Notes under the pieces: generated by a model
What the model was told of the DNA's origin: nothing
What the model saw: the letters and a program-made list of their open reading frames with translations, nothing else
Database searches by the model: none
Part shown: one piece after another, positions 1-6,697 of the stretch
Layout: each line of letters opens with the position of its first letter
Numbering within the stretch: the first letter of the stretch is position 1
Program-made: the position numbers and the translations under genes
Origin: a bacterium
GTDB lineage: Bacteria > UBP6 > JAFGXH01
Assembly: GCA_027064085.1 (NCBI GenBank)
Contig: JAMOQH010000121.1
Location: 1 to 8,513 of the forward strand
Reading direction: 5' to 3'
Length of the DNA stretch: 8,513 bases

Positions 1-1368
1 AATGAACTTGACAACTGTCCTCTTATTGTAAATCCTGAGCAACTTGATACAGATGGTGATGGAGTTGGAGATGCTTGTGATGAATGTATAAATGATGTTA
101 ATAAAACTCAAGCAGGTATTTGCGGTTGTGGAGTACCTGATAATGATACCGATGGAGATGGTGTTGAGGATTGTGTTGATAATTGTGTTTATACTGCTAA
201 TCCTGACCAAGCAAATGAAGATGGAGACAGTAAAGGTGATGCCTGTGATATGTGTGGTGAAGGGACAGAGCCTGAAGAAATTTGTAATGGAATAGATGAT
301 GACTGTAATGGAGTTATAGATGAAGCGGGAGTTTGTGATAATAACTGTACAAGAGAAGAATACAACGGTCATGTTTATCTTTTTTGTGATGAAGAGTTAA
401 ATTGGTTGGAGGCTCAGAATAAGTGTAATAATATGGGCTACACTTTAATAAAAATTGATGATAGTGATGAAAATACTTGGATAGATAGTAAAATTACTGA
501 ATATTTAGATATTACTAAAGGCACTATTATTGGTTTAAATGATATAAATGATGAAGCTGTTTATAGATGGAATTATGACACTGCATCAGCTATTTATTCA
601 AACTGGAATTCAGGAGAGCCTAACAATTCGGGTAATGAAGATTGTGTTGAAATGGGATATGGTAAGTGGAATGATATAAAATGTGATTCAGAAAGAAGAT
701 ATATTTGTGAAAATAATGTTCCAAATTACTTTAAATCCTGTAAAGAAATATTGGATAATGGTTTTAGTTATGGCGATGGAGTTTACACTATAGACCCTGA
801 TGGATTAGATGGTGATAATGAGCCTTTTAAAGTTTACTGTGATATGACAACAGATGGAGGAGGCTGGACTTATATCGGAACTAATAACTTAGAAGATAAA
901 ATAAATACTTTCAAATTATTTAATAGAACAACTCGTGTAATAAAAGGAACTGCTTCAGAGACAATAAGAAATATTGATGACAATTATTTTGAAATTGGTT
1001 CTATTATTGATGGTAATAAAAAAGTGGTATACTTTGAATTGGATACTATTTTTACATTTTCTGAGATTAGAGGAAGCTGGGCATCTAAAGGTTTAGCTCC
1101 TGTACATAATGATGATAATTCCACATTTAATAGTTGGGGAATAGCCCCAAGTTCATATTATGGTTATGTACAATATGGAACACCGTCTAAGTTAATTAAA
1201 AAAGGTGGCAACTGGGGAGGAGATTATAACAATAAAACTTCTGATACTGTATGGAATAATGATAATTCAGTTACTGTAGATAATGATAGTGTAATAAGAT
1301 GGGCAGTTGCTGACCAATCTACCAAGGAATATAGCCATATATATAAAATCAATTTATGGGTTAGATAA
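1..1368 (+). CDS. Partial secreted protein: TSP3 repeats, MopE-type motif, C-type lectin and fibrinogen-like domain (5' end missing)
   Basis: Frame 1 is open from the first base, so the Met at position 250 is internal and the true start lies upstream of the window. The 455 visible residues show, in order: thrombospondin type 3 calcium-binding repeats (about 1-83, with DTDGDGVGD and DTDGDGVED and paired Cys); a MopE-like motif (about 93-108, [12 protein letters not shown]); a C-type lectin-like domain (about 116-236) with EPN at 206-208, WND at 223-225 and the expected cysteines; and a bacterial fibrinogen-like YCDxxxxGGGW domain (about 245-455, YCD at 279-281, GGGW at 286-289). EPN plus WND is the calcium/mannose-type sugar-binding signature of animal C-type lectins. 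The second half of the fibrinogen-like region has no cysteine, unlike animal fibrinogen domains. A secreted or surface adhesin role is inferred; the ligand is unknown. No C-terminal anchor is visible. Confidence 0.9.
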
Positions 1369-2935: not shown

Positions 2936-3661
2936 TTAATCTTTTAATCCTTTTTTTATAGTTGAAAAAATAAATTCAACTCTTCTGTTTCTCATTTTAT
3001 TGATACTAGAATTATTGGGAAATAATGGAACACTATCTCCTCTACCAACAGCATGCAGTAAAAATCCTTTTACTTTTGATTCTTCATTAAAAAATCTTAC
3101 AACAGAAACAGCCCTAAGTGCAGATAATTCCCAATTTGTAGGAATAGTAACTGAGTTCATTGGAGAAGAATCTGTATGAGCCTCAACATATAATTCAACA
3201 TTTCTTGTTTTTTTATAAATAGCAATAACATCTTCTAACAATGGCCAAGCAATGGGTTTTATAACATAAGAAGCCTTATCAAAAATATAATTACCACTAA
3301 CCCTCAATACAATTCCTCGGGAATCTTTAAACACTTTCATTTCAACATCTTCTTCTGATTTTTTATATCTTTTTACTGTTGCTTTTAATTTTGTAATAAT
3401 GTCTTCTTCTAACTTAGGGTCAAAATCTGAAGCAATAAGAGTAGTACCAACTGGATTTTCATAAACGGGTATTTTCTTTTGAACACCGAAATTATCTTTA
3501 ACCTGCCCTGCAACTTGTTTATACTTAACTACATCCATAGTAGAAAATGAAAGTAAAAGAATAAAAAAAGTTAAAAGTAATGACATCAAATCACCAAAAC
3601 TAACCATCCAACCAGGAGCACCCTTTGGACAGGGTTTTGGTTTTTCAGCAGGCTTACCCAT
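2936..3661 (-). CDS. pomB: Flagellar stator protein PomB/MotB, OmpA-like C-terminus
   Basis: A 241-residue stator B subunit anchoring the flagellar ion channel to peptidoglycan. Residues 16-40 form the single transmembrane helix with the ion-carrying aspartate at Asp24 (F-G-D-L-M-S). A plug-like stretch follows (about 41-60, MDVVKYKQVAG). The OmpA-like peptidoglycan-binding domain spans about 115-235, with HTD at 162-164, NWELSALRA at 176-184 and NRRVEF at 225-230. The N-terminal half closely resembles, from memory, Vibrio PomB, including Asp24 and the segment VGTTLIASDFDP. It is shorter than Vibrio PomB (about 315 residues), chiefly in the linker. The ATG shares its A with the pomA stop (TAATG), and a GAGGGAG ribosome-binding site lies in the pomA 3' end, so the subunits are coupled. 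Sodium specificity is inferred from resemblance. Confidence 0.9.
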   Translation of the reverse strand: MGKPAEKPKPCPKGAPGWMVSFGDLMSLLLTFFILLLSFSTMDVVKYKQVAGQVKDNFGVQKKIPVYENPVGTTLIASDFDPKLEEDIITKLKATVKRYKKSEEDVEMKVFKDSRGIVLRVSGNYIFDKASYVIKPIAWPLLEDVIAIYKKTRNVELYVEAHTDSSPMNSVTIPTNWELSALRAVSVVRFFNEESKVKGFLLHAVGRGDSVPLFPNNSSINKMRNRRVEFIFSTIKKGLKD

Positions 3662-4425
3662 TACTTATCTCCCTCTTCTACCCCTCGACCAGCAGGAGGT
3701 AAATAAGTTAATAAAAATTCCTTTAAAATTTTTGGATTTTCTCCTTTTTGAATACCTAGTAATGCTTCAACAATTAGATTTTGTAATTTTTCTTCTTTAG
3801 CATTTCTATATTTCAATTTATCAGAAATAGGTAAAGCTATAAGGTTTGCAATAATAGAACCATATAAAGTTGTAAGTAAAGCAACTGCCATAGCAGGACC
3901 AATAGAAGCAGGGTCGTCCATATTTGCAAGCATATTAACAAGTCCAACTAAAGTTCCTATCATACCAAAAGCAGGAGCTGCATCTCCCCAAGCCTCAAAA
4001 ATACTAGCACCTAAATCGTGTCTTTCTACAGTATTTGAAATATCTGTATACATTAAACTTTCTAATTGCTCACTATCGGCACCATCAACTAAATAATTTA
4101 TTCCTTTTTGTAAAAACTGATTTTCTAATTCTACTCTTTCAAGGGCTAAGATTCCTTCTTTTCTTGCTAATGTTGCTAATTCTTCAACTTTATTAATTAT
4201 TTCTAGCATATCAGGAATTTTATCAGAAAAAGCATTTTTAGCAATTTTTATAGCAGACCCAATATCTTTTAGGCTATATCTAATAACAACAGCCATACTA
4301 CCACCACCAACAACTAACACAATAGAAATAGCATCAATAAATAAACCTAAACTACCACCTAGTAAAATAGCGACAATAATAAGAATTGTTCCAACAACTA
4401 AGCCAAGAACTGTTGCGAGATCCAT
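3659..4425 (-). CDS. pomA: Flagellar stator protein PomA/MotA, sodium-type residues
   Basis: Stator A subunit, 254 residues from the ATG at 4425. An upstream TTG at 4446 is in frame, but GAGGAG sits just before the ATG, inside that extension, so the ATG is preferred. The stop is at 3661-3663 and overlaps the pomB start by one base. Four transmembrane helices lie at about 4-22, 29-50, 150-168 and 178-200. In this numbering the residues match those known in Vibrio PomA: Arg88, Lys89 and Glu96 in the cytoplasmic loop facing the rotor; Asp148, Thr158 and Thr186 linked to sodium passage; Pro151 and Pro172. Proton-type MotA usually lacks these threonines. No other flagellar gene is in view, so this is an isolated stator pair. 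Family certain; ion choice inferred. Confidence 0.92.
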
Positions 4426-4491
4426 GGATTCTCCTCTAATACACAATACCTTATTCGTCTTTTTCCTAAAAAACTTAAATTTTTTATAATT

Positions 4492-4530: not shown

Positions 4531-4555
4531 AATTTTTAGCTAATATCTAAAAATT
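4531..4555 (-). terminator. AT-rich inverted repeat at the end of the lipoprotein gene
   Basis: Nine-base perfect arms AATTTTTAG (4531-4539) and CTAAAAATT (4547-4555) flank a 7-base loop and overlap the stop codon of the minus-strand gene. The stem has one G-C pair and no T-run follows it, so termination would be weak. A second inverted repeat lies nearby: ACCTTATT (4448-4455) and AATAAGGT (4512-4519). Confidence 0.3.
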
Positions 4556-5930
4556 ATTCTTTTGTAATAGTAACATCTTTTAAATTAAAATTAATCTTTT
4601 TATTACCATTAGGAGCATAAATAGTAACAGATTCACCAGTCTTAATGCTTCTTAGATTTGTTTTTGAAATAACAATACTTCCATAAGAAACAGACTTGCT
4701 CCCCTTTTCAAAAGCAGAATGTTTTGGAGAAAATGGAGATTTTTTATTTCCCATATTTAGCTTTTTTACAATATCATTGGTAATTACTTCATCTCCGGCA
4801 CTTCCTTTTGAAAATTCATTTTTTATAGACATCTGTGCCATTGTAAAATTATCTTTTACCATAAATATTTTTGATCTTTGAATATATGAAAGATATGAAG
4901 GTATTACCATTGCTGCCAGTACACCCACAATAGTTACAGCCATTTCAATGCTTTTCATATTAATAGTAACAAATAAATTACTTTCTTTAGCTTCAATTTT
5001 AACACTTTTTGCCATTATTTTAAATTCTTTAATTAGTATTTTATAGGCATCCTTTTCTCCTTGTGTAAGGTCTTTTTTATCAGAAAAAAGTTTTTCATAA
5101 GCATCAATTTGTTTCAATATCATTGGTAGATACACTTGATACATCACAGTTAACTTTTTAGAAGCATCAATAGCATCTTTTGTGTCTAATTTAACCAATA
5201 ATCTTAATTTATTCACCCCATTATTAGTAAAACTAAATAAAGAAGCTCCAGTTAAACTTTTTAAAAAGGAGGGCATATTTTTTGTTAAATTTAATTTTTT
5301 ATTATTATTTACAAAAGAAATATAAAATCCATTATTTTTACTCTCTTTTATTATATTTCCTAATTTTTCATCAATATTCATATCATAGTTTACAAGATTC
5401 TCAAGAGAAATTTTATCTGATGCAATATATGAATTTTTATCGTCAGATGCAATCATAAGTTTATCCTTCATAAAATATTTAATGTTTTTATATTTTTTAT
5501 ATTTTTGAGTATCTTTATTATCTTTTTTATTAATAAGGTTAATAACATCTAGAGCATTTAACCCATTAATCTTTACAAACATTTTTTCTTTATTTATTAC
5601 AAAAGATACACCCCTAAAATTTTCAATTTTTAAAGATTTGATTAACTCAACTTGTTGTGGTGGAAGTTTACTCATATAAACATCTAATTTTGAGAGAATT
5701 TGCTTCATCATACCATCTTCTAAAATGATTTCACCTTTTATCATGGCAGTATCTTTTAAATTTTTATTTTTCTCTCCATTTGCTTGAGTCACACTATTGT
5801 GTGCCTCTTTTTTAACGGTTGTATCAGAAGATTTATTTACTGATTTTTTTTCATTCATTGAATTTACTTTATTACAGCTTGTAAACACCATTAAAATAAC
5901 ACTTAATAACATTACAAATATTCTACTCAT
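4554..5930 (-). CDS. Lipoprotein with internal type IV pilin-like C-terminal domain
   Basis: I do not recognise the full 458-residue protein. Residues 1-19 are a lipoprotein signal peptide (hydrophobic core, then F-T-S-C with Cys19); Phe at -3 is not ideal. A Ser/Lys/Asn-rich linker follows (about 20-60), then a globular region to about 320 resembling no family I can name, possibly DUF3352-like. Residues 325-355 (IEMAVTIVGVLAAMVIPSYL, then SYIQRSK) match the conserved start of type IV pilins: Glu as in E5, the GVLAA stretch, the IPSYLSY turn. The last 100 residues could be a small pilin-like beta domain. In pilins this helix is at the extreme N-terminus after a prepilin peptidase site; here it is internal and the Gly at -1 is replaced by Asn. 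The ATG is supported by AAGGGAG. Role unknown. Confidence 0.75.
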   Translation of the reverse strand: MSRIFVMLLSVILMVFTSCNKVNSMNEKKSVNKSSDTTVKKEAHNSVTQANGEKNKNLKDTAMIKGEIILEDGMMKQILSKLDVYMSKLPPQQVELIKSLKIENFRGVSFVINKEKMFVKINGLNALDVINLINKKDNKDTQKYKKYKNIKYFMKDKLMIASDDKNSYIASDKISLENLVNYDMNIDEKLGNIIKESKNNGFYISFVNNNKKLNLTKNMPSFLKSLTGASLFSFTNNGVNKLRLLVKLDTKDAIDASKKLTVMYQVYLPMILKQIDAYEKLFSDKKDLTQGEKDAYKILIKEFKIMAKSVKIEAKESNLFVTINMKSIEMAVTIVGVLAAMVIPSYLSYIQRSKIFMVKDNFTMAQMSIKNEFSKGSAGDEVITNDIVKKLNMGNKKSPFSPKHSAFEKGSKSVSYGSIVISKTNLRSIKTGESVTIYAPNGNKKINFNLKDVTITKE

Positions 5931-5961
5931 AAAAACTCCCTTAGTTTATCAATAAATTTTG

Positions 5962-5992: not shown

Positions 5993-6697
5993 TTAAAGAA
6001 CATTTGGTATTATTGAAGAAGGATATAATCTTGAAATATAAAGAACTTTGTGATTAATGTAAAGACACAAAAAATGAACTACAACGGTTAATATTTCAAG
6101 ATAAATAACTTCTGGCATAATAGGTTCTGTATATTTATTGTATAAAAATATAAATAAAGTAATTAAAACAATCCCCATAAAGTATGCAAATAATCTTGAA
6201 GAAGTAAATTTATTTTCATGCCCTGGTAATTTTACACCTGATATATTTACATTTCTGTTTGGATTAACAACCAGCAATCTTATTAATGGGCCAATAACAG
6301 AAGCTAAAATTACCAAAGCATAAAACCAAAGTCCATATTTACCAAACCAATATGTCACCAAAAGAGATATCGGTACCAACCAAATGGCATCACCCCAAAA
6401 ATATCCAAGCCATGGAACTTCATTTCTTCCGATTTTACGCTCTCCTCTGTAAAATCCATTCACCATTAAGTCAACCATTTCAGGCTGATAAACCTTACAT
6501 CTTGGACAGGGAAAAGGCTTTATATAGTATATTTCCTTTCCCTGCAATGTTTTTCTTATGTCATAACCACTATCATTATACCTCTGAATATAATCAGTTA
6601 CAGAAGAATATCCGAATTTTTGCCCACAAACAACACACTTATGACTGATATCAAGGTAAAAGGCTTCTCCATTTATTACATGATGTTTGATTCTCAT
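5993..6697 (-). CDS. Unrecognised four-helix membrane protein with N-terminal zinc-ribbon-like cysteines
   Basis: A 234-residue protein of unknown family. The N-terminal, probably cytoplasmic, part carries CVVC (Cys21, Cys24) and CPRC (Cys64, Cys67), two CxxC knuckles 39 residues apart that would suit one structural zinc or a rubredoxin-like site. Four hydrophobic segments follow at about 97-117, 121-143, 169-186 and 197-215, with a polar loop around 145-168 (NPNRN, PGHENK). There is no signal peptide. The ATG at 6697 is supported by GGAG five bases upstream. A good promoter lies 30-58 bases further upstream, and the downstream lipoprotein gene has its own, so it is probably monocistronic. 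Zinc binding is inferred from cysteine spacing only. No function can be given. Confidence 0.75.
   Translation of the reverse strand: MRIKHHVINGEAFYLDISHKCVVCGQKFGYSSVTDYIQRYNDSGYDIRKTLQGKEIYYIKPFPCPRCKVYQPEMVDLMVNGFYRGERKIGRNEVPWLGYFWGDAIWLVPISLLVTYWFGKYGLWFYALVILASVIGPLIRLLVVNPNRNVNISGVKLPGHENKFTSSRLFAYFMGIVLITLFIFLYNKYTEPIMPEVIYLEILTVVVHFLCLYINHKVLYISRLYPSSIIPNVL

Follow-up and report, generated by a model that had tools for sequence, protein, structure and literature searches.

Modules grafted onto pilins are believed to equip the pilus with new functions. More than 1,200 proteins that combine a pilin module with an unrelated module have been listed, and in examples such as PilB of Streptococcus sanguinis the class III signal (IPR012902) is N-terminal and intact while the extra, non-pilus module is C-terminal (PMC8179133). 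The class III signal of a type IV pilin is made up of a leader with Gly or Ala as its last residue, followed by a hydrophobic stretch in which Glu5 is usually found; prepilin peptidase acts from the cytoplasmic side on such a leader, and Glu5 is thought to aid docking (PMC10191384). A second system of relevance is TP0453 of Treponema pallidum (3k8g-3k8j), described in the available text of PMC5421087 as a putative lipoprotein at the inner surface of the outer membrane, with an alpha/beta/alpha architecture and amphipathic helices, and proposed there as a lipid carrier. The grafting of modules onto pilins is known, and the gene that we describe here is a variation on it, in reversed order and with the signal removed. 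Like the modular pilins, its product joins a pilin module to an unrelated module, but the extra module is N-terminal and carries a lipobox, and the pilin module is C-terminal and has lost the class III signal. Apparently, a subunit of the pilus has here been put to use as part of another protein.

A lipoprotein joined to a pilin

The gene is located at positions 4554..5930 on the minus strand of the window, by which we denote the whole stretch of 8,513 nucleotides that was analysed. It is a complete gene for a lipoprotein-pilin fusion of 458 aa, with an open frame, an ATG start and homologs on either side of the junction; a ribosome binding site AGGGAG (5936..5941, minus strand) lies 5 bases 5' of the ATG, the upstream sequence being AGGGAGTTTTT followed by ATG. 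By inspection, the n-region, the hydrophobic h-region and the lipobox cysteine of bacterial lipoproteins are all present in residues 1-19 (5874..5930, minus strand; MSRIFVMLLSVILMVFTSC), with the lipobox FTSC and Cys19, and an ortholog in a sister genus has the lipobox LPSC at the equivalent place. This signal peptide is the most hydrophobic stretch of the protein. It is followed by a low-complexity linker (residues 20-61; 5748..5873, minus strand), which is largely missing from the ortholog, and by a periplasmic-type alpha/beta domain of about 260 residues (residues 61-322; 4965..5750, minus strand), here called the N-domain, which is 31% identical to the ortholog (L005) and has a predicted TP0453-like fold. 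The linker (KKEAHNSVTQANGEKNKN) resembles a linker, RAEPHNSVVQKNGDNKNN, in another contig of the same genome (L004, G000:C188:52394-52522; E 3.3e-4); there, an unrelated frame of 845 codons carries it behind a transmembrane helix.

The original prediction described a lipoprotein with a pilin helix at residues 325-355. The fusion of a lipoprotein to a pilin was borne out and the pilin helix is real, but its extent needs revision, since the pilin homology, overlooked earlier, goes on through the globular part and spans the whole subunit from about residue 328 to the C-terminus. Residues 328-438 matched PilA1 of the same genome with 42% identity (E 1.8e-24) and residues 327-441 matched PilA2 with 39% identity (E 2.6e-20). 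These two are tandem canonical, type IVa-like PF07963 pilin genes on contig C103 (G000:C103), and they are the best other matches in the genome. The alpha-1 core helix (residues 328-350; 4881..4949, minus strand; IEMAVTIVGVLAAMVIPSYL denotes residues 328-347) was identified by profile and shuffle tests against PilA, and the globular domain (residues 351-458; 4557..4880, minus strand) by alignment to PilA1 and PilA2, so that both structural parts by which a type IV pilin is recognised, the alpha-1 helix and a globular domain homologous to pilins, are found in the fusion protein. The globular part alone scores 180 against PilA1, compared to a maximum of 60 in 5000 shuffles.

In common with PilA, the fusion protein has the alpha-1 core helix, alpha-1C, the globular core (LNxG.K..PF..., TGESVT) and the C-terminal ending ...VT.KE. 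The pilin-specific helix residues (AA, P, Y..SY, S) are still present, which exceeds the needs of a plain anchor. Unlike PilA, it has a 320-residue lipoprotein in front and lacks the leader, Gly-1, Phe1, Glu5 and both cysteines of the disulfide-type loop WCGSAGVMGDC; its globular part is basic, with a net charge of +10 compared to -3 and 0 for the PilAs. The loss of the cysteines and the basic globular part fit a non-pilus, possibly cytoplasmic location, although the charge argument is weak because the N-domain is likewise basic.

In a small tree, the fused pilin part fell together with PilA1 and PilA2 and apart from the PilAs of the sister genus; support was moderate (88/89) and its branch was long (1.68). 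Similarly, the globular part scores 180 against PilA of its own genome versus 72 against PilA of the sister genus. This closeness suggests that the globular part was captured later in this lineage or underwent gene conversion there, or else that PilA has changed fast in the sister genus. It would also be expected if the pilin part were a donor for pilA variation by gene conversion, and silent pilin cassettes lack the pilin N-terminus, as the fused pilin part does. We consider such a role highly improbable, since the protein identity is just 39-42%, there is one copy, and no conversion tracts were seen in a nucleotide alignment that was short and gapped.

Loss of the processing signal

In a gapless register with PilA, Pro344 of the fusion protein corresponds to pilin Pro22, Ser327 to position 5, Glu329 to position 7 and Asn324 to position 2. 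Gly-1, Phe1 and Glu5 are all missing and the preceding ..FVTINMK has no Gly-Phe; the protein has neither the class III signal of type IV pilins nor the N-terminal IPR012902 signal of modular pilins. An earlier reading of Asn at -1 and of a Glu5 is corrected here, as it would require that two residues had been deleted from the helix and the gapless register puts this Asn at position 2. The accompanying expectation that cleavage is unlikely nevertheless stands, because the site is absent in either register and because PF07963 (N_methyl), which recovered ten pilins above the cut-off in the same genome, left the fusion protein unmatched even at E 10. The loss of the site matters because the genome encodes two prepilin peptidases. 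With the class III signal gone, neither prepilin peptidase cleavage nor normal pilus assembly of the fusion protein would be expected.

A lipoprotein of this kind could still tether or regulate the type IV pilus if its pilin module, periplasmic or at the membrane, packed on PilA or on the pilus base. The genome has the tandem pilA pair, minor pilins and the two peptidases, the grouping of the pilin part with its own PilAs and its higher score to them are as co-evolution would give, and the pilin-specific helix residues have been retained. We regard this adaptor role as unlikely, if worth keeping in mind, since Glu5 and the free Phe1 N-terminus are missing, the pilin part comes behind a 300-residue secreted domain and would insert opposite to a pilin, and the globular part is dispensed with in the sister genus. 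The location of the gene also speaks against it: motA and motB lie downstream, a membrane protein with two CxxC pairs lies on the upstream side, and no pil genes adjoin the gene in the window neighbourhood. For the pilus-base tether and the minor pilin-like adaptor of the original prediction, the analysis yielded no evidence.

The ortholog and the age of the fusion

The sister genus (G001, contig JAFGXH010000022, MAG ZodW_Metabat.349) carries the same lipoprotein (L005), which has 331 aa and is 31% identical overall, among neighbours that differ from those of the window gene. Directly after the last strand of its lipoprotein domain, at the equivalent junction, there is a pilin-like helix, IVLIPIIAAIAVPAYQSYAKASQNN. 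This helix scores 74 against PilA of its own genome, a value reached by none of 5000 shuffles, and the best non-pilin hydrophobic helix compared scores 43. The ortholog stops right behind the helix and the next gene follows back to back; a decayed pilin remnant was looked for 3' of the stop and none was detectable. Looking for the same fusion in relatives, as had been proposed earlier, hence returned a pilin-like helix at the matching junction but without the globular part.

The junction is common to the two genera. The first ~8 residues of the mature pilin are missing from both fused helices, and this favours a single fusion event prior to the split of the genera. Helix and junction probably predate that split, whereas the globular part of the pilin appears to be confined to the window lineage. 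Separate capture of the helix in each genus may also be considered, as each fused helix is nearer to PilA than to the other fused helix. The suggestion of a recent fusion fails for the helix and the junction, which the sister genus shares, and holds at most for the apparently lineage-specific globular part. Since the sister genus keeps the anchor helix alone, we suggest that selection acts on the helix.

Another reading of the same truncation is that the lipoprotein works alone and that the pilin tail is a tolerated, decaying by-product of recombination, already lost in the sister genus with no recognisable remnants downstream; the tail also lacks the cysteine loop and the processing site, and has the long branch (1.68). 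This appears doubtful to us, as 135 codons have stayed free of stops and the tail still shares 39-42% identity with PilA, both genera have preserved the hydrophobicity of the helix, and the globular part retains its LNxG.K..PF core. A lost stop or frameshift near 4950, a concern raised with the original prediction, or a chimeric assembly could likewise have merged two genes, given that the contig comes from a fragmented draft assembly (195 contigs) and the full-length form exists in a single copy. We give almost no credence to an artefact: one clean frame with even GC3 (0.160 and 0.156) runs through both parts, no ribosome site is apparent before the internal Met325 when the sequence is read directly, and an independently assembled ortholog has a pilin-like helix at the matching place.

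The N-domain itself is rare. Homologs were found in 2 of 386 genomes at E 0.001, both in this family; scans of the genome contigs with the window protein gave no relative and those with the two-sequence alignment gave the sister MAG alone, and there was no match in the viral contigs and plasmids searched. A search of the phylum at relaxed stringency returned two weak matches, to an alpha-amylase-like protein and a trypsin-like protease, which were judged from their reading frames to be due to chance.

A possible second membrane anchor and other pilin fusions

Searches of Pfam, NCBIfam, PHROGs and PDB sequences gave no family match for the N-domain. It was modelled alone (AF2) from an alignment of the two sequences, giving a mean pLDDT of 56 and ~84 in the last 70 residues. 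With Foldseek, this model of mean pLDDT 56 matched TP0453 over the whole domain (E 1.1e-6, prob 1.0, TM 0.43), and VIA-align gave Z 9.7 over 195 residues at rmsd 5.3 A, compared to 7.0 for the best unrelated row. TP0453 was the sole strong fold match; the full-length AF2 model (pLDDT 42) had no significant match in the fold search and did not reproduce it, and the BFVD fold search gave no significant match. Both proteins would be lipoproteins with a similar predicted alpha/beta fold over nearly the whole length, but no sequence similarity between them was detected and the available text of PMC5421087 reports no pilin part for TP0453. The TP0453-like fold of the N-domain is a lead and not an assignment.

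Our preferred reading, to which we give a tentative probability of about 0.45, is that the pilin helix has been exapted as a second membrane anchor. A gene fusion would have joined an envelope lipoprotein, with its predicted TP0453-like domain, to a copy of the lineage's PilA, entering the pilin ~8 residues into mature alpha-1 and thereby discarding its leader, cleavage site and Glu5. The product would be exported by its own lipoprotein signal, which would place the N-domain in the periplasm, and we infer lipidation at Cys19 from the lipobox. A hydrophobic helix behind a translocated domain, if hydrophobic enough, acts as a stop-transfer sequence and takes an N-out/C-in orientation, the reverse of that of a pilin. 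The pilin helix would in this manner serve as the second hydrophobic anchor, most likely as a stop-transfer in the inner membrane, and the lipoprotein domain would be held at both ends in the periplasm. The globular pilin part, where present, would be on the cytoplasmic side, and the fusion protein would undergo neither PilD processing nor polymerisation.

The mean KD of the fused helix is 1.95 in the window protein and 2.16 in the sister protein, each second only to the signal peptide. However, the mean hydrophobicity of the PilA helix is 2.96 versus 1.95 in the fused helix, and a crude insertion energy puts the fused helix at the margin, most clearly that of the sister genus; taken together, these values mean that the helix may not span the membrane. 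An outer-membrane destination like that of TP0453 would, if it applied, conflict with an inner-membrane anchor, and the N-domain is present in just two genomes. With the same inverted topology, the cytoplasmic PilA fold might contact or report on the pilus motor, the pilin being re-purposed for signalling or anchoring, which we hold to be quite unlikely.

The usual traffic is seemingly reversed here, with a signal-less pilin turned into part of a lipoprotein, and with the sister genus retaining the pilin helix alone. If this is true, pilin helices are a supply of ready-made membrane segments. Searches that rely on the class III signal overlook such proteins, and those that rely on the helix miscall them pilins.

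In order to look for comparable arrangements, 386 genomes were surveyed with a profile built from both internal helices, and the reading frames of ten selected matches, for the most part the longest ones, were inspected. Other domains followed by a pilin segment are thus present elsewhere, as a few cases among the matches listed and in differing arrangements. An M48 metallopeptidase in at least one genome among the matches listed (L148, G202:C4:411600-418100) has an internal pilin-like helix, FAVAMIGILAAIAIPNFLRYQERA, with no class III signal. It is similar to the fusion protein in this internal signal-less helix (IGILAAIAIPNFLRYQERA), but its host domain, Peptidase_M48, is unrelated and a pilin globular domain is not evident. 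Also among the matches listed, at least five genomes of one family in another phylum have a HAMP-like protein fused to a signal-bearing pilin. The frames (L151, G156:C3:12200-14700; L154, G293:C15:18700-21200; L163; L164) have two TM segments, a HAMP-like domain and a coiled coil, followed in frame by a pilin with an intact KGFTLIE; copies in four genomes are 54-100% identical to the query, and a fifth copy, in G394, is contig-cut and has the pilin segment at its end. Here too the pilin is joined behind another domain, but the site behind the HAMP-like domain is intact, so processing is possible: the entire HAMP protein would be the 'leader' removed by prepilin peptidase, which the topology permits. 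An aspartokinase-like frame (L149, G226:C40:7700-10900) reads stop-free into a pilin with its own Met and signal (MIKSNGFTLIEL), and is either a fusion or a lost stop. No further internal pilin helix was recognised in surveys of two small other phyla, and a literature search on internal pilin helices gave no relevant paper for the phrases tried.

Three other genes of the window can be noted. The membrane protein upstream of the fusion gene (window 5993-6697, minus strand), whose two CxxC pairs read CVVCG...CPRC, has no family match above the cut-off. For motA (window 3661-4446, minus strand), the listed TTG start is probably wrong, as an ATG preceded by GAGGAG lies 21 bases downstream (GAGGAGAATCCATGGATC). 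The product of window 250-1368 (plus strand) combines a C-type lectin domain with the start of a fibrinogen C-terminal domain, and also has a weak MopE-like metal-binding motif; these are animal-like adhesion domains in a bacterium.
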